Shown: in pieces, positions 19,601 through 27,370 of the stretch
Layout: each line of letters starts with the position of its first letter
Position numbering within the stretch: the first letter of the stretch is position 1
Origin: Oscillospiraceae bacterium
GTDB lineage: Bacteria > Bacillota > Clostridia > Oscillospirales > Ruminococcaceae
Length of the DNA stretch: 37,520 nucleotides
Reading direction: 5' to 3'
Assembly (NCBI GenBank): GCA_017396665.1
Contig: JAFQLH010000008.1
Location: 1-37,520 of the forward strand
Notes under the pieces: generated by a model
Database searches by the model: none
What the model was told of the DNA's origin: nothing
What the model saw: the letters and a program-made list of their open reading frames with translations, nothing else
Position numbers and translations under genes: made by a program

Positions 19601-19631
19601 GCTGTATTGTTTACTTGTTCGCTTCCAGTGC

Positions 19632-19672
19632 AAACAACAAACCCCCGACATAGTGTCGGGGGTTATGATTGT
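19632..19672 (-). terminator. Terminator of CAA cassette 2
   Basis: On the minus strand AACCCCCGACA pairs perfectly with TGTCGGGGGTT around a 3-base loop, followed by TGTTGTTT. The same hairpin occurs at 23478-23518. Confidence 0.9.
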
Positions 19673-19674
19673 TT

Positions 19675-19806
19675 TTAGCCCTGGCCAGGTCCGAGCGGGG
19701 TGTCTCCGCCTTCCTCGGTCCAGTCTTCTCCGCTCATTGTGATTACGTCAGCTGTGCCGAGTACCTTGATAAGCTCGAAGCTTGGTTCTGTATACATTTC
19801 CTTCAT
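19675..19806 (-). CDS. 43-residue peptide of CAA cassette 2
   Basis: This short gene is well supported: GGAGG lies 8 bases before the ATG, it begins 19 bases after the large exported protein, and a terminator follows the stop. The 43-residue product begins MKEMYTEPSFEL, has a middle section ADVITMSGEDW, and ends in an acidic Gly/Pro-rich tail closing GPGQG. It has no signal peptide, membrane segment or cysteine. The second cassette carries a sister peptide with 39 of 43 residues identical, all differences in the last 14. The pattern of conserved front and variable tail recalls precursor peptides, but no modification or export gene is adjacent. Short proteins with a Y-x-x-P-x-x-E start and a D-V-I-T stretch are known to me from related Firmicutes only as hypothetical proteins. 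Confidence 0.85.
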   Translation of the reverse strand: MKEMYTEPSFELIKVLGTADVITMSGEDWTEEGGDTPLGPGQG

Positions 19807-19825
19807 TTTAGTTGCCTCCGTTTTC

Positions 19826-22800
19826 TTACTTCTTGAGTGTCCAGAAGTTGTTGCTGTTCATATTAAGAACGTAGTTTCCGTGCAGGTATTCCTGACCGTT
19901 TTCGTCATAGTAGTATGCATTGATGTAGAGATTTTCGTTCTCGAATGCTTCTGCAGGGAGTACCATTCTTACCTGTCTGTATCCATCGTAATCCTCCATG
20001 AAGCTATCATTTCCGAGGAGTGATGTTCCGCTGAGGCCTGATGAATGGATACCGAATGCACAGAACTTATCTATCAGGTTAGCTGTATCTGCGCTGTGGG
20101 TTACTGTTCCTTCGTAGATATATTTCTTGCTTGTGAGGCTTTCTGTAGAAATTGTGAACCTTGTGCTTGCTACTGCGTCGTTATCTACGCCGAGTACCAT
20201 TGATACCATGAAGTACTTGCCTTCTGTATCTGCTGCGAGTGCTTCAAGACTATCGATTCCGATAAGTGTAAAGTCGCTTGTTGTCTGGTCGTATGCCATT
20301 CTCTGAGCTACCTTATTACCAGGAATGTAGTGCTTTCCATTGAAGCTGATGATGTTGAAGTGTACTCTTGGGGTTGAAGTTTCATTCTTCAAAACCACTG
20401 CATAGAGGTCTGTATCAGCAGCAGGGTATGTGAAGTTTGAGTTTACAGGGTAGTAAACATTCTTGATTGGGTCATACCATACAGTCTTATAGGTATTGTT
20501 ATTGTTGTTAAGGTTGATGTATGGGAGATTTGTTGTAGAACCTGCAGCCTTGTCGAGCATATAGTCAAATCCGCTCAAGAGGTCACCGTTTGCATCGTGG
20601 AATCTGAGGTCATAGAGGTTTGAAAGAACAACTGTGTAAGCGATATCTCCCTTATTGAGAGGATTGTTACCAAAGTAGGTATTATCCTGTGAGATTGTTT
20701 CAGCAGTAATGCTTTCAACTCTGTAGCCTGCCGGAATTGTGATAAGTTCGAGGTCAGATGAATCATATGAGCCGCCTGCGATATCATTTGCGATAAGCAC
20801 TGACTTTGTTTCGTTTCCGTTCATATTATTGGTTGAAACGTTTGTCTGTGGAGCAGCATTTCCGTCAGCCTGCATTGCGTCCATAAGAACGTCAACTGCT
20901 GTACGGCCTGAGTTGTTGTTGCCGTCGTTGTATACAACCTTAACATAAGCATCAACGTAGTTATCAACAACCTTGATTGTGTAGGTGTTTGTTTCGTCGT
21001 CGAAGGTTATTTCCTTGATTGTAAAGTTCGGGTCATTGAGCTCTGCTTCGAGTGAGTAGACTACTTCTGCTCCCGTGTCTGGGTCAACGATAGCCATATT
21101 ATTGAATAAATCAGATTGACCGTCGTTATAGAGTGTAGTTGAACCAACTTCCATACCGTCAGCATAGAGCTTAGCGGTTACTTCGCTGAAGTTCTGTGGA
21201 TAGTCGCTTTCAACCTCAACTACAACATCGTAAACTACTGTATTGTTGTAAAGGTAAATAACAGCCTTTCCGTCTGTGAGGTCTGTATCAGCTTCCTTGT
21301 ACTCGATATATCCCATCGGAATTACGTATTCCAGGTCGGTTCCGTCAAACTGTGAGAGGTAGTCGATAACCTTTCCTTCATCATCAAATACAGGAAGACC
21401 TGTATCAAGGCTTACTTCAGTATTTGTGATATCAACAGTTTCTGAATTGCCGAACACATCCTCTTCCTCGAATGAAATTACATCCATAGATGTGTAACCG
21501 AAACTTTCAAGCAGTGACTCTGTAGCAGAAGTAGTATACCCTACTTCTCCTCTTTCGCCGTCTTCATCATTGTTGTCAGCGTAGTGAACTTCAACGTCAA
21601 CAGTTACATCTGTTCTCATAGAGTCAACATCAACTACGAAGTAAATATTAGAGGATGTACCTGTTCCGGAAACATCAGGGAATGTGAATGTTTCACCAGC
21701 GTTAGCACCACTGTACTTGATGAGGTATGAATCATCTACAGTTACATCATTGGTATTGATATCCAAGAGAGTTGGGATATTAGAAATGAAAGTTTCGCTG
21801 CCGATATCCTCTGCGACACTTTCACCTGTGCCGTAGGTGTGATCGATGTCGGCAAAATATTCCCAGTAAACATCAGCGCCTGCATATACATCGAGTCCTG
21901 AAGCTGCAGCGATATCATCGCCTGTGAGGACATCGAGAGTATCGCCCATCTTATATGCATTTCTGAGGTCTGTTACACTACCCGGAACATAGATTTCTTC
22001 ATCGATGAGCTCCTTATAGGAAAGTGTTTCGTAATCCCAGTAATAGAAGTGTGCAACATAGTAATCCTCAACGGTCTCGCCATACTTTTCAACATAGTTG
22101 TTATAGTATTCTGTTGGCATAGTGAAGGAGAAGTAGCCCTGCTCTGCGTCGATTGTGATTGTTTCACCGATAAGCTGGCTTCTGTTATGTCCTGCACCGC
22201 CTGAAATCTTAGCGTTTGGAGCAAAGATTACACCACGGTAGATTTCGTTTGTGGATACTGTTTCAGCTTCATAGAAGTTGAAAACAACATTTGAGTTTGC
22301 ATTTGAGGTATTACCAATCTGATTTCCGTTGTATGCAAGCTCCTTCTGGAGAACTGTAGGGTTCTTTCCGGGAACGTTGATTACAACATAAGAGCCGTCT
22401 GGAACAACAAGGTTAATCTCGTTCTGTGCAATCTCATCCCACTCTTCAGTTGTGAAAGTAAACACATTAAGCTGTGAATCGGTGCCTGTGATTGTAGTCT
22501 GGTTATGTTCGTTTGTTACCACTGTACCGAAGTTTGCAGGGAGAGTAGCGAGCTTAGCGCTCTTTTCCTTGAGCATCTGCATTTCAGCATCAAAGTCGAT
22601 GATGAAGTTATCCTTATCAGATACATATACAACATCACCGGAATCAGCCGCATTGAGAGCATTCTTATGTCCAGTACCGAGCTGTGTAACCGCATCAGAA
22701 AGTACAACATATCCGTGAGCTGCACTCCACTCGAGAACTATATTTGCATCATTTTCGCAGATAACTGCAGCCGCACCGCTGAGTGTGTTCTGTGAGTTCA

Positions 22801-23212
22801 TCCAATTCTTGGCATGGTAACCTGTTGAGCCAGTATCATTCTTAAGTGTCTGAGCAGCGATTCTTCCTTCTGTGTCAGCACCGTGAACAACAGTTACATC
22901 CTTACCGAAGATTGTGAAGAATGAAGCTGTTCCGAAGAAGTAGTCATCAGGGTTAACGCTTGTTGAACCATAGATAAGTGTCTTTGCGAGGTCGCTGTCC
23001 TTCTCAACTATCGGCAGTTCATAGCCTGTTGCTGTTGAGTCGATTGCTACATCACCGTCTGCAGCGTAGCCATTTACATTTACAACGCCTGTTGTTTCAG
23101 GGGTAGAATTGCTGCCGGAAGTATTAAGAGCAACCGCACCTGCAACAACGCCAGCCGCAATAACGTGGCTTGCAGTAGCAGCGACAATTTTCTTTGCTGT
23201 TAAATTTGTCAT
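19826..23212 (-). CDS. Choice-of-anchor-A-type exported protein, cassette 2
   Basis: This 1128-residue protein is probably secreted or surface-bound. It begins with a basic stretch and a hydrophobic segment rich in Ala and Val (about residues 8-30), a likely signal. Residues ~88-380 look like a choice-of-anchor A domain: the opening YFFGTASFFTIFGKDV, EGRIAAQ, then VVINVPGK, FNFYEA and GVIFAPNAKISG. A beta-rich middle includes a Cna-B-like segment (KLYADGMEVGSTTLYNDGQ) ending VDNYVDAYVKVVYNDG. The last 181 residues, from PRVHFNIISFNGK to WTLKK, differ at only 16 positions from the cassette 1 protein. No LPXTG, dockerin or membrane tail is visible. AGGAGG lies 8 bases before the ATG, under a strong promoter. 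Function is unknown; adhesion is a family-level guess. Confidence 0.85.
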   Translation of the reverse strand: MTNLTAKKIVAATASHVIAAGVVAGAVALNTSGSNSTPETTGVVNVNGYAADGDVAIDSTATGYELPIVEKDSDLAKTLIYGSTSVNPDDYFFGTASFFTIFGKDVTVVHGADTEGRIAAQTLKNDTGSTGYHAKNWMNSQNTLSGAAAVICENDANIVLEWSAAHGYVVLSDAVTQLGTGHKNALNAADSGDVVYVSDKDNFIIDFDAEMQMLKEKSAKLATLPANFGTVVTNEHNQTTITGTDSQLNVFTFTTEEWDEIAQNEINLVVPDGSYVVINVPGKNPTVLQKELAYNGNQIGNTSNANSNVVFNFYEAETVSTNEIYRGVIFAPNAKISGGAGHNRSQLIGETITIDAEQGYFSFTMPTEYYNNYVEKYGETVEDYYVAHFYYWDYETLSYKELIDEEIYVPGSVTDLRNAYKMGDTLDVLTGDDIAAASGLDVYAGADVYWEYFADIDHTYGTGESVAEDIGSETFISNIPTLLDINTNDVTVDDSYLIKYSGANAGETFTFPDVSGTGTSSNIYFVVDVDSMRTDVTVDVEVHYADNNDEDGERGEVGYTTSATESLLESFGYTSMDVISFEEEDVFGNSETVDITNTEVSLDTGLPVFDDEGKVIDYLSQFDGTDLEYVIPMGYIEYKEADTDLTDGKAVIYLYNNTVVYDVVVEVESDYPQNFSEVTAKLYADGMEVGSTTLYNDGQSDLFNNMAIVDPDTGAEVVYSLEAELNDPNFTIKEITFDDETNTYTIKVVDNYVDAYVKVVYNDGNNNSGRTAVDVLMDAMQADGNAAPQTNVSTNNMNGNETKSVLIANDIAGGSYDSSDLELITIPAGYRVESITAETISQDNTYFGNNPLNKGDIAYTVVLSNLYDLRFHDANGDLLSGFDYMLDKAAGSTTNLPYINLNNNNNTYKTVWYDPIKNVYYPVNSNFTYPAADTDLYAVVLKNETSTPRVHFNIISFNGKHYIPGNKVAQRMAYDQTTSDFTLIGIDSLEALAADTEGKYFMVSMVLGVDNDAVASTRFTISTESLTSKKYIYEGTVTHSADTANLIDKFCAFGIHSSGLSGTSLLGNDSFMEDYDGYRQVRMVLPAEAFENENLYINAYYYDENGQEYLHGNYVLNMNSNNFWTLKK

Positions 23213-23477
23213 AATGTTATCCTCCTATTCTATTCTTATTGAGACATAGTTCCGCATTTTTGTAGTTTGATTTTATCACAAAGAAAGTAATTTGTCAATA
23301 AATTTTCGTAAAAAAATATTCATTTTTTGACCTAAAAACGTTTTCTTTTTAAGCACACTGTGTGCTATTTAATTTTGTTTCCTTGATATTCCATTTTCCC
23401 TCAGCCACAGCTTTTGTGTCATTTTTGCCTATTAGTAAAATATTAAATATCGATATTTTAAGTTATATTATCATATT
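23213..23477 (-). other. AT-rich upstream region of cassette 2
   Basis: No gene is seen. Besides the promoter at 23270-23298, it holds a perfect hairpin-type palindrome AGCACACTGTGTGCT at 23352-23366 and a 14-base palindrome AAATATCGATATTT at 23445-23458. Either could be a protein binding site, and neither is followed by a T-run on the relevant strand. Confidence 0.5.
23270..23298 (-). promoter_or_regulatory. Strong sigma-A type promoter for cassette 2
   Basis: A perfect TTGACA (23293-23298) and TAAAAT (23270-23275) are separated by 17 bases on the minus strand. This gives a leader of about 50 bases before the AGGAGG site and ATG. Confidence 0.85.
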
Positions 23478-23518
23478 AAACAACAAACCCCCGACATAGT
23501 GTCGGGGGTTATGATTGT
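23478..23518 (-). terminator. Terminator of CAA cassette 1
   Basis: This is the same hairpin as at 19632-19672, AACCCCCGACA/TGTCGGGGGTT. It ends the cassette 1 transcript before the cassette 2 promoter. Confidence 0.9.
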
Positions 23519-23520
23519 TT

Positions 23521-23652
23521 TTAGCCCTGGTCAGGTCCGAACGGGTTGTCTCCGCCTTCCTCGCCCCAGTCTTCTCCGCTCATTGTGATTACGTCAGCTG
23601 TTCCGAGTACCTTGATGAGCTCGAAGCTTGGTTCTGTATACATTTCCTTCAT
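23521..23652 (-). CDS. 43-residue peptide of CAA cassette 1
   Basis: This is the sister of the peptide at 19675-19806, with the same 43-residue length, 19-base gap to the large gene and GGAGG site. Residues 1-29 are identical. The four substitutions are at 30 (Thr to Gly), 36 (Thr to Asn), 38 (Leu to Phe) and 41 (Gly to Asp), reading from cassette 2 to cassette 1. At the nucleotide level there are seven differences: two silent in the front 29 codons, five in the last 14 codons, all amino-acid changing. The tail therefore looks free or pressed to vary while the front is held constant. The product may be a signal, a substrate of an unlinked enzyme, or a partner of the large protein. Confidence 0.85.
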   Translation of the reverse strand: MKEMYTEPSFELIKVLGTADVITMSGEDWGEEGGDNPFGPDQG

Positions 23653-23671
23653 TTTAGTTGCCTCCGTTTTC

Positions 23672-26600
23672 TTACTTCTTGAGTGTCCAGAAGTCGTTGC
23701 TGTTCATATTAAGAACGTAGTTTCCGTGCAGGTATTCCTGACCGTTTTCGTCATAGTAGTATGCATTGATGTAGAGCTTTTCGTTCTCGAATGCTTCTGC
23801 AGGGAGTACCATTCTTACCTGTCTGTATCCATCGTAATCCTCGATGAAGTTATCATTTCCGAGGAGTGATGTTCCGCTGATACCTGATGAATGGATACCG
23901 AATGCACAGAACTTTTCTATGAGGTTTGAGTTATCTGCACTGTGGCTTACTGTATTTTCGTAGATGCAAGTCTTGCTTGTGAGGCTTTCTGTAGAAATTG
24001 TGACCTTTGTGCTTGCTACTGCGTCGTTATCTACGCCGAGTACCATTGATACCATGAAGTACTTGCCTTCTGTATCTGCTGCGAGTGCTTCAATACTATC
24101 TATTCCGACAAGTGTAAAGTCGCTTGTTGTCTGGTCGTATGCCATTCTCTGAGCTACCTTATTACCTGGAATGTAGTGCTTTCCATTGAAGCTGATGATG
24201 TTGAAGTGTACTCTTGGGGTTTCGGATGTGTCTCTTACTGTAGTAAGATAGAGGTCTGTATCAGCAGCAGGGTATGTGAACTGTGAGCCGAGTGGATATA
24301 CCTTATTTGCTACAGGGTCAAACCAAACATACTTGTAGCCTGTAGGTGGTTCCTTGTAGTCCGTCCAACCCCATCCACCCAAAAGATTCCTTGGAGTTTC
24401 TGCGAATTGGTCGAGGAATGATTCCTGTCCTGAGATGAGGTTGCCGTTCTGGTCGAAGAATCTGAGGTCATAAAACTCAACACCGAGAGTAATTGTATAG
24501 AGGATATCGCCGTTTTCGAGTGTCTCAACAGTGAGGTCCTTCTGGTAGTAGCCGTTTGCGAGACCCGAGTAGTCAAACTCATCTAATCCGTATGTACCGG
24601 GGAGAAGGTCGTTTCCTATCTGGACTCTTGATGTTGTAGTTGCGGCACCGTCTGTGTAGCTTTGCTGAACTGTTGTTGCAGGAGCGTTATTGCCGTTTGC
24701 CTGCATTGCGTTCATATCGGCACTGAGTGTCGGACGCTTGTAGAAATTATTTGTATACTGCTGGAAGCCGTCGTCATAGATTACCTGAACGTAGGCGTCA
24801 ACATAGTTGTCCTTTACAGTAACAATGAACTTAGGATTGCCGTTGTTGTTGGTTGTTTCTTCTACGCTGTATACATAGAACAGTTCGCCGTTAACAGAAA
24901 CGTCATCTTCGCTCAGAGAATAGAAAATGTCGTCACCTTCATAATCAACCTTCGGAACATCGAAGCTTACTGTCTGACCATCGTATGTAAGCTCTGTTGT
25001 GGAGTTTGCCATACCATCGGCCATAATTGTAGCAAATGCACCGGTGAACAGCTCAGGATAGTTACTTTCAATCTGGAGCTCTACTTCGATATCCATCTTA
25101 TTCTCAGTCATTACGATAGTAAATGAATCATCATTGTTCTGGTGAACTTCAGCGACATACTTATCTCTGTCATATGTGAGACAGTTTTCTTCAAGGTTGT
25201 ATACATACTCGGTGCCATCACTGCTTGCTGCAGGAACCTTGATTTCTGTAACGCTTCCGTTCTGAGAAACTGAGAAATCGTCCTTGTCATCGATAACACC
25301 ATCAACAAGGAAATCACCGGATACTCCCTCAAAGTTGTCTCTGTCTGAGAGTGCAGAAGTATCGAGAACCACGTAAATGCTCTTGAACTCATTCTGCTTG
25401 AGGAAGATTTCAGCCTTAGCGTCGTCCTTGAAGGATACGTCAGCTTCCTTATACTCTGAGTAATGCTCAGGAATCACGTAATCAAGGTCGGAAATCTGAG
25501 CGAGATAATCAATCTCTAAGCCCTTGTCGTCAAATACACGAGCGTTCTCGAAGACAGTTACGGTATCCTTATATACTTCGATAGTGTTGTAACTGCCGTC
25601 GATATCATCGCCGTAAACGCTTTCAATCACATCGAATGCAGTTTCGTAGTCAATCTTGTCGACTGTACCTGTTACAGGGCCTCTTACCTTGTTTTCGTCG
25701 GAATTGTCTGCATAGTGTACATCAACTTCAACCTCGACATCCTTAGTAACGGAGTTAGGGTCAACTACGAAGTATACGTTTGCAGAATAAGAGCCTCCCA
25801 TGTCAACAGGTCCAAACTTATGTGTTTCGCCTTGTGCATAGTAGTAGCCTGTGGTCTGGAATTCGCCGTCAGCGTGAACAATAGTCTTGTCAAGTACATA
25901 GGTGTTGAAGATATCAGTAACAACGCTGTCAACAGGATACTCTGACTTCATCTGCTCGCCGCTTACGATATTGCCTGATTCCTTATCAAGATTTACATCG
26001 TTGTAAGCAACCCAGGCGATGTCAGCATCCTTATACGCATCAAGACCTGAAGCATTATACACGTCTTCAGCAGTGAGGGTATTTATACCGTCGCCCAACT
26101 CAAAGATGTTTTCCTGATTTCCCATTCCGCCCGGAACATAGACATCCTTATCGTTGATTTCTTCGTAAGCACCAGTTTCAGGATTCCAGTAGTAGAAGTG
26201 TGCTACATACTTATTCTCGATTGTACCTACCTGCTCTATATAATCTGTAACCATATTCGCAGGCATTGTGAATGCGAACTTGCCCTGCTCTGTTGTAGCT
26301 GCAAAGCTCTTTGCGTAGATAGCACCAAAGTTATGGTTAATACCAACGTAGTGCTGAGAACCGTCATCAGGAGCATTATCGAGGTTTATATCAGCATTTG
26401 GTGCAAGGATACTTGCCATAAGACATCTGTCAACAAAGTTTGAATCTGTTGCTTCATAGAAGTTAAGGAGAACTCTTTCATTGTCGGTGTTGTCTCTGGC
26501 TTCAAGCTGATTTCCGTTAACAGCGATTGTGTTTGGTGCAAATGTTGCCATTTCACCCGCAATATTGATTACACAATATGCGCCTTCAGGAAGAATGATA

Positions 26601-27370
26601 TTAATCTTCTTGTTAAAGTAGGACTCCCACTGTTCTTCTGTGATAGAAACAACATTAAGACCTGAATTTCCACATTCAAATGTAATAAACTCTTCGCCTT
26701 CAGTTACTATTATATTGGACTTAAGGTTTGAAAGCTCGAGGCTCTTTTCTCTGAGCATTTCAAATTCAGCGTCAAAGTCGATAAGTCCGTCCTCCACGAG
26801 AACAAGACGTCCTGTGAAATCTTCATTTGTTGAAGTGATTCCTGTAGAAGCAACAAGTGGCTTTACCGACTCTTGTACACCGCCGAAGCTATATCCTGAG
26901 TTATCACAAACCAGTGGTGCTTCGCCGTTCTTGGAGCTTGGGAAAATAAGTCCGCCCCCTGTATTTCCAGGTCTGTTGTAATATCCTGCAGCGATTCTTC
27001 CTTCACAGTCAGGGATAGTTGTTACAAGAAGCTCATCCTGAATAAAGAGTGTGAACAGAGATGCTGAGCCGAGATAGTAATCTGTTGTATCTCCGCCATT
27101 GAGGAGAAGCTGTGCTTCAGGGCTTTCTCTGTCATACACTTCATATGTAGCTGTATCGTAATACAGATAGCCACCAAAGCCTTCTTTCTGCTCACCGTAC
27201 TGTACTGTTTGAGAGCCAACTTCGTACACAGATTTTACTACACCTGTTGTTGCCTGTGTTGATGCCTTGTCGGAGTCGCCAAGCATATAGACTGTTCCTG
27301 CTACCGCACTACTAGCGATAACAAGGCTCGCTACTGCTGCTGCGACCTTTTTTGTCGTCATAGTGTTCAT
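23672..27370 (-). CDS. Choice-of-anchor-A-type exported protein, cassette 1
   Basis: This 1232-residue paralogue has the same plan as the cassette 2 protein: a basic, Ala/Val-rich export signal (about residues 5-32), then a choice-of-anchor A domain (about 93-375). That domain opens with DYYLGSASLFTLFIQDELLV and includes EGRIAAGYY, CVINIAGEMATF, LLNFYEA and ASILAPNADINLD. It has an extra Cna-B-like segment compared with its partner: two such units (about 680-830), the first around SGDFLVDGVIDDKDDFSV. The conserved 181-residue C-terminal module also ends WTLKK. No sortase motif, dockerin or transmembrane tail is present. AGGAGG lies 7 bases before the ATG. The 3' module is nearly identical to the partner's while the N-terminal part is not, suggesting recombination after duplication. 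Confidence 0.85.
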   Translation of the reverse strand: MNTMTTKKVAAAVASLVIASSAVAGTVYMLGDSDKASTQATTGVVKSVYEVGSQTVQYGEQKEGFGGYLYYDTATYEVYDRESPEAQLLLNGGDTTDYYLGSASLFTLFIQDELLVTTIPDCEGRIAAGYYNRPGNTGGGLIFPSSKNGEAPLVCDNSGYSFGGVQESVKPLVASTGITSTNEDFTGRLVLVEDGLIDFDAEFEMLREKSLELSNLKSNIIVTEGEEFITFECGNSGLNVVSITEEQWESYFNKKINIILPEGAYCVINIAGEMATFAPNTIAVNGNQLEARDNTDNERVLLNFYEATDSNFVDRCLMASILAPNADINLDNAPDDGSQHYVGINHNFGAIYAKSFAATTEQGKFAFTMPANMVTDYIEQVGTIENKYVAHFYYWNPETGAYEEINDKDVYVPGGMGNQENIFELGDGINTLTAEDVYNASGLDAYKDADIAWVAYNDVNLDKESGNIVSGEQMKSEYPVDSVVTDIFNTYVLDKTIVHADGEFQTTGYYYAQGETHKFGPVDMGGSYSANVYFVVDPNSVTKDVEVEVDVHYADNSDENKVRGPVTGTVDKIDYETAFDVIESVYGDDIDGSYNTIEVYKDTVTVFENARVFDDKGLEIDYLAQISDLDYVIPEHYSEYKEADVSFKDDAKAEIFLKQNEFKSIYVVLDTSALSDRDNFEGVSGDFLVDGVIDDKDDFSVSQNGSVTEIKVPAASSDGTEYVYNLEENCLTYDRDKYVAEVHQNNDDSFTIVMTENKMDIEVELQIESNYPELFTGAFATIMADGMANSTTELTYDGQTVSFDVPKVDYEGDDIFYSLSEDDVSVNGELFYVYSVEETTNNNGNPKFIVTVKDNYVDAYVQVIYDDGFQQYTNNFYKRPTLSADMNAMQANGNNAPATTVQQSYTDGAATTTSRVQIGNDLLPGTYGLDEFDYSGLANGYYQKDLTVETLENGDILYTITLGVEFYDLRFFDQNGNLISGQESFLDQFAETPRNLLGGWGWTDYKEPPTGYKYVWFDPVANKVYPLGSQFTYPAADTDLYLTTVRDTSETPRVHFNIISFNGKHYIPGNKVAQRMAYDQTTSDFTLVGIDSIEALAADTEGKYFMVSMVLGVDNDAVASTKVTISTESLTSKTCIYENTVSHSADNSNLIEKFCAFGIHSSGISGTSLLGNDNFIEDYDGYRQVRMVLPAEAFENEKLYINAYYYDENGQEYLHGNYVLNMNSNDFWTLKK

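Follow-up and report, generated by a model that had tools for sequence, protein, structure and literature searches.

Short peptides encoded behind large exported-looking proteins in gut Clostridia as probable RiPP-like precursors

Why should a gene of only 43 codons stand, at the same short distance, behind each of two large genes for exported proteins? The question is raised by a stretch of 37,520 nucleotides from an Oscillospiraceae bacterium (assembly GCA_017396665.1, contig JAFQLH010000008.1), referred to below as the window, in which two tandem units each combine a large choice-of-anchor-A gene, a 43-codon gene and a terminator-like hairpin. From its sequence, the 43-residue peptide is probably a precursor resembling those of ribosomally synthesised and post-translationally modified peptides (RiPPs), encoded in a single unit together with one particular large exported protein. 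This is the simplest reading because a leader-like front part and a core-like tail are accompanied by genes for a RiPP recognition element (RRE) protein, a kinase-like protein and a peptidase. The features of the two units are as follows.

23672-27370, minus strand: large choice-of-anchor-A gene, 1232 aa (TIGR04215 E 2.3e-25, PF20597 1.1e-23)
23653-23671, minus strand: 19-nt spacer with GGAGG ribosome site, upstream unit
23521-23652, minus strand: 43-residue peptide 2, leader-like residues 1-25, acidic tail 26-43
23486-23510, minus strand: terminator-like hairpin, 11 pairs
19826-23212, minus strand: large choice-of-anchor-A gene, 1128 aa (TIGR04215 E 3.6e-30, PF20597 1.3e-28)
19829-20410, minus strand: C-terminal 194-aa end domain of the 1128-aa protein
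19807-19825, minus strand: 19-nt spacer with GGAGG ribosome site, identical in sequence to 23653-23671
19675-19806, minus strand: 43-residue peptide 1, leader-like residues 1-25, acidic tail 26-43
19640-19664, minus strand: terminator-like hairpin, 11 pairs, identical to 23486-23510
19620-20459, no strand assigned: tract resembling 23466-24305 at an offset of 3846, probably homogenised between the copies

In both copies the large gene is followed by a 19-nt gap, the 43-codon gene and the hairpin. A preliminary description of this DNA had reported this equal layout, the identical hairpin and a 3846-base offset through the 3' part, all of which were borne out: the two 19-nt sequences are identical, the hairpin has 11 pairs, and 60-nt windows compared at the offset were 68-100% identical across 19620-20459, with identity falling beyond 20459 to 48% and then to 22-27%. 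The strong ribosome site that it had placed before the small gene was found as GGAGG in both spacers, and its naming of the large genes as exported choice-of-anchor-A proteins also held, both products exceeding the cut-offs for TIGR04215 and PF20597 and having a hydrophobic N-terminus and a C-terminus that is not hydrophobic (by our own heuristic). Since the two large proteins share 37% identity in their first 550 residues versus 87% in their last 194, the pattern is compatible with a 3' block of end domain, peptide and terminator having been homogenised as one unit. The two peptides are 91% identical; their front parts differ by two silent and no coding codon changes, their tails by four coding and no silent ones. 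As a separate observation, the copies of the end domain (19826-20401 versus 23672-24247) differ by 25 coding and five silent codon differences, an excess of coding change despite the otherwise homogenised tract around them.

The pairing of large gene and peptide is above chance, because the end domain recurs in two of the nine other genomes of the genus that were searched and a peptide gene of 41-45 residues lies 18-22 nt downstream of all five copies. These copies come from three of the ten genus genomes, two each from the window's genome (G000) and G003 and one from G001; outside the window's own genome, none was found in 197 family genomes drawn. The G001 unit is flanked as in the window, by what we take by eye to be a GH3-like gene and an XRE-cupin-like gene, and G003 has its two copies on separate contigs, each close to a contig end and each next to a different one of these neighbours, pointing to a tandem that is shared. 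No confirmed relative was found in viral contigs, and plasmids gave a single chance-level match. The choice-of-anchor-A proteins of five other species of the genus share the exported domain and all ten end in an (S/N/P)PxTG-like motif, a hydrophobic stretch and lysines; the peptide profile had no match in the loci of these ten genes. In contrast, the window pair and its three close relatives lack this ending and have a peptide gene behind them instead, the C-termini in the window (NNFWTLKK and NDFWTLKK) showing no sortase signal, that is, no LPxTG-like motif with hydrophobic stretch and basic tail. The contrast within the genus is thus between five peptide-paired proteins without an anchor and ten anchored proteins without a peptide, three further PF20597 genes (L037-L039) that are cut off or masked being excluded from it.

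The peptides extend well beyond the genus. Among 297 family genomes, a starting profile of five peptides found them in 18 (E up to 0.1) and a profile of 27 rows in 30 (E up to 0.01); the latter also found them in 45 of the 391 genomes of the class (E up to 0.001). The window's genome is included each time, and one genome of the family had 11 matches and one of the class 18. As the preliminary description had supposed, no known family fits: both window peptides were without a Pfam or NCBIfam match at E up to 1. From 80 matching frames we removed two with E above 1e-4 and two by length (one with a wrong start, one of 145 aa), which left 76 peptides, 75 of them distinct. Their front part is of near-fixed length, with conserved Tyr, Pro, Asp, Ile and Ser and the consensus Y-x-x-P-x-(M/L/I)-E-(I/V)...D-(V/I)-I-x-x-S; in the alignment Ser was kept in 74/74 aligned, Asp in 74/75, Tyr in 72/76 and Pro in 62/76. 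The tails are variable, 6-27 residues long, and acidic, with a negative charge, in all 76, as split by our own pattern (the hydrophobicity limits and peptide starts used here are likewise our own heuristics). Gly stands directly after the invariant Ser in 25/74, and the front part has no conserved Gly. The family thus has what is expected of a RiPP, a short precursor with a conserved leader and a variable core, and the coding changes between the window copies fall in the tail only.

Some tails share a further pattern. The motif P-hydrophobic-x-P or LP-hydrophobic occurred in 15 of the 76 tails versus 3.1 expected by shuffling, a suggestive sign of an ELPFVPxx-type tail motif, the pattern having been picked after inspecting the data. 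Similar ends were seen on small Ser/Thr-rich genes that adjoin peptides:

L178 6844-7371, L217 9381-9863, L288 9466-9951, L325 4251-4889: lipo- or membrane-protein-like genes ending in (E/T)LPFVPxx, resembling some peptide tails

In one case (L191 6454-6996, G213:C18) the entire peptide motif is fused to a small lipoprotein-like protein, as its C-terminal end. Longer tails that contain Cys were seen on two peptides of Faecalibacterium prausnitzii APC923/51-1 (L281 12074-13089), which adjoin a long frame built from a simple ACLL repeat.

What, then, does the peptide accompany? The link to a large gene proposed in the preliminary description recurs, 56 of the 76 peptides lying behind an open reading frame (ORF) of at least 300 aa that shares their strand and ends no more than 80 nt before them (the median gap being 17 nt), but it is not a link to choice-of-anchor-A genes, that domain being present in only 5 of the 47 partners scanned, all five from the window's genus. 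Among 50 complete partners (47 were scanned for families, the last three being excluded by size), 44 had a hydrophobic N-terminus and none a hydrophobic C-terminus within the last 45 residues. With one filter applied to both groups, stricter than that behind the 56, an exported-like ORF of at least 300 aa lay just upstream of 43 of the 76 peptides, as against 7 among 517 other genes from these loci. Two further peptides are encoded in the window's genome, behind exported-looking proteins of 721 aa (L177) and 889 aa (L178), and in G293 seven of 11 peptides follow an ORF of at least 300 aa within 80 nt. In 20 class-wide loci read by eye, mostly the best-scoring ones listed, 19 had an upstream ORF of at least 230 aa on the same strand (gaps up to 230 nt, some ORFs cut by the contig end), and in three the kinase, PqqD and peptidase genes lay directly downstream. 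The other 20 of the 76 peptides comprise, by our reading of the loci, two at contig ends, four behind a peptide or lipoprotein gene, four in or beside the machinery genes, three with a shorter or more distant ORF, one fusion and six with no visible partner.

The partners are diverse, the families in the 47 being BspA-type LRR_5 (9), Flg_new_2 (7), pAdhesive_15 (5) and Transglut_core (5), with single cases of cellulase, dockerin, papain-like and other families. A C-terminal domain common to the partners was considered and rejected: profile-profile probabilities for three C-terminal types were 2.8, 0.1 and 0.1%, and no Pfam family occurred in more than 9/47. Across the fetched loci, a hydrophobic C-terminus was seen in 0/47 paired versus 11/54 unpaired exported-like proteins, 10 of the 11 coming from genus loci added purposely and a few of the unpaired proteins (L085, L324) having a peptide slightly farther off.

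The second recurring element, beside a large and usually exported-looking upstream protein, is a kinase, RRE and peptidase gene set in the genome. Among these related genomes an HPr-kinase-like gene was present in 28 of 30 peptide genomes versus 18 of 267 others at the family level (46/297 overall; Fisher 7e-25), and in 44 of 45 versus 67 of 346 at the class level (111/391 overall; Fisher 2e-26). The named kinase loci analysed were the best 80 of 569; of these 80, PqqD lay within 3 kb in 64, PqqD together with an S24/SipW-like peptidase gene in 54, and 31 had a same-strand peptide gene no more than 1.5 kb away. Several loci continue through a small lipoprotein-like gene, the HprK-like kinase, PqqD, the S24/SipW-like peptidase, an ABC transporter and NTP_transf_5. 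The kinases carry the P-loop SGTGK(S/T)TH, and the SipW-like Ser/His peptidases kept S-M, L-H-R and G-D-N in all nine aligned. In cluster L071, Pfam matched PqqD (1.3e-13) and NTP_transf_5 (1.8e-37), the peptidase resembled archaeal-type signal peptidase I under the cut-off (2.5e-7), and HPr-kinase models matched the kinase and its relatives weakly. In the window's genome a kinase-PqqD-peptidase operon lies on G000:C5, syntenic with the other two peptide genomes of the genus, and NTP_transf_5 on C41; its kinase and peptidase were assigned through similarity to relatives. Of the genus genomes, only the three with peptides had PF14907 and short PqqD frames standing alone (94-143 aa), PqqD exceeding the cut-off in small frames of G000, G001 and G003; the G002 match over the cut-off lies inside a 486-aa frame.

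The set varies between species. Coprococcus catus has the machinery set with an exported-looking 1419-aa gene and a peptide, Kandleria vitulina the set with a 117-aa peptide frame, and Ruminococcus flavefaciens Y1 the whole set with no peptide detected in the locus; Faecalibacterium prausnitzii has the kinase and two peptides, PqqD and the peptidase not being found in the locus. Two other PqqD contexts were seen. G000, G001 and G003 share a second stand-alone PqqD (L111, L114 and L118; G000:C26, G001:C50 and G003:C39) that adjoins 640-660-aa transporter-like and cysteine-synthase-like genes (names by eye). At L117 4900-8600 (G003:C33), in a species of the window's genus, a separate radical-SAM RiPP-like cluster contains, by eye, PqqD, a radical SAM protein, a 75-aa precursor and an ABC transporter; the precursor has a similar front part (KKFEKP...DVITESS), then a long tail, and scored weakly (E 0.03).

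On the RiPP-like reading, the PqqD-type RRE protein would bind the front part of the peptide. The invariant Ser would either receive a phosphate from the kinase-like protein or directly precede the cleavage site of the peptidase; it is a candidate acceptor by analogy with phosphorylated lasso peptides, and (T/V)-x-S conforms to the small-residue rule of signal peptidases at the cut site. The acidic tail would be exported and, in the most speculative step, the product might help outside the cell to place or assemble the anchorless partner exoprotein. Of the four roles named in the preliminary description, namely signal, inhibitor, assembly factor and modified product, the last is the best supported, indirectly.

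Known systems offer other explanations. Lasso leaders follow YxxPxLxxxGxxxxxTxG, with the core starting at Gly, and we know of no case in which lasso precursors are paired with exoproteins. The peptides could be true lasso precursors, their leader bound by the RRE and the ring of the core closed by a cyclase encoded elsewhere. In favour of this, a PqqD-type B1/RRE protein, an HPr-kinase homologue, a nucleotidyltransferase and an ABC transporter occur with a short precursor in the phosphorylated or phosphoglycosylated lasso clusters of the paeninodin and pseudomycoidin type (PMC8498205). Rumen Ruminococcus lasso leaders also have Y-x-x-P (PMC7533575), and the best NCBIfam match of one PqqD was the lasso PqqD model (6.8e-8, under the cut-off). 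However, no Asn_synthase (cyclase) or lasso B2 protease family was among the 25 of 202 families listed for the 118 kinase-locus neighbours scanned, a scan that took 118 of 176 listed proteins, from whose listing a single-member family could escape and which did not extend to whole genomes for a cyclase. Further differences from lasso clusters are the presence of a SipW-like peptidase, the position of the invariant Ser, which closes the front part instead of being C-terminal, and the placement of the precursor in one unit with the gene of a large exported protein. Tyr and Pro of the leader motif are there, but the tails are 6-27 residues and all acidic, with the core-start Gly at 25/74 and no conserved Gly in the front part. 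Overall, a lasso precursor is very improbable. SynChlorMet and PqqD/radical-SAM RiPP cassettes likewise have HprK-like (ScmC) and PqqD-like partners, one of our kinases matching NCBIfam ScmC weakly (6.2e-5, under the cut-off); they differ in their precursor, and radical SAM proteins made up only 9 of the 118 neighbours.

A second alternative is a role without modification, the peptide acting in the cytoplasm on its partner as an inhibitor, a chaperone or a regulator coupled through translation, and the kinase set being unrelated. The tight coupling would suit this, with stop and start codons overlapping in some loci (gap of -4 nt at L072, L073 and L204), as would the lack of a hydrophobic signal peptide by eye; the front part, however, stays constant while the partners share no Pfam family beyond 9/47, and the kinase accompanies nearly every peptide genome (28/30 and 44/45), with a peptide gene close by on the same strand in 31 of the best 80 loci, which makes this explanation unlikely. 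Somewhat less probable still is a secreted signal or bacteriocin-like product whose carrier, receptor or target is the large protein: exporter and peptidase genes in many clusters and the nine radical SAM neighbours speak for it, and against it are tails that are short, acidic and hydrophilic and genomes with several peptides, each with another exoprotein (7/11 in G293).

Several observations weigh against the RiPP-like reading. Modification, cleavage and export of the peptide are so far predictions. The Fisher values given above overstate independence, the genomes being related; the peptide genomes G184, G287 and G559 had no kinase match; and the kinase search was broad, 67 of the 111 class genomes with a kinase having no detected peptide, so that the kinase serves other systems also. 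In the window's genome the machinery is encoded away from the peptides, with no exporter seen next to it; its kinase matched no HPr-kinase Pfam model (AAA_29 only, 0.035) and its peptidase no Pfam family. One partner, L194, is a glycosyltransferase and not an exoprotein, the six peptides above have no visible partner gene, and a simple leader-removal model leaves the L191 fusion unexplained. As for anchoring, the argument rests on one genus; beyond it nearly all unpaired exported-like proteins of the fetched loci also lack a C-terminal anchor, and replacement of anchors as a general rule was unsupported there.

A wider proposal can be made only tentatively and is rather doubtful: across the class, many large unanchored surface proteins might each have their own RiPP-like peptide, matured by shared HprK, PqqD and SipW-like proteins and exported, that would tether, cap or assemble them at the surface, replacing sortase anchors in the genus, with the ELPFVPxx lipoproteins as the membrane side. 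A surface role is suggested because the partners are anchorless, the genus shows the sortase contrast, some peptides have a C-terminal motif in common with neighbouring lipoproteins, and the L191 protein is a fusion.

A full-text literature search turned up no paper that describes the pairing (its scope took in few subscription papers, so that a prior description is possible), and the pairing of peptide and exoprotein in gut Clostridia seems undescribed so far. RiPPs have mostly been studied as free natural products, and the pairing could represent a novel means by which surface proteins are finished or placed. What the reading directly predicts is that one invariant Ser is modified or is followed by a cleavage site. 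If true, peptide modification would be connected with the cell-surface biology of bacteria from gut and rumen, and a function would be suggested for many unannotated genes of 30-60 codons.

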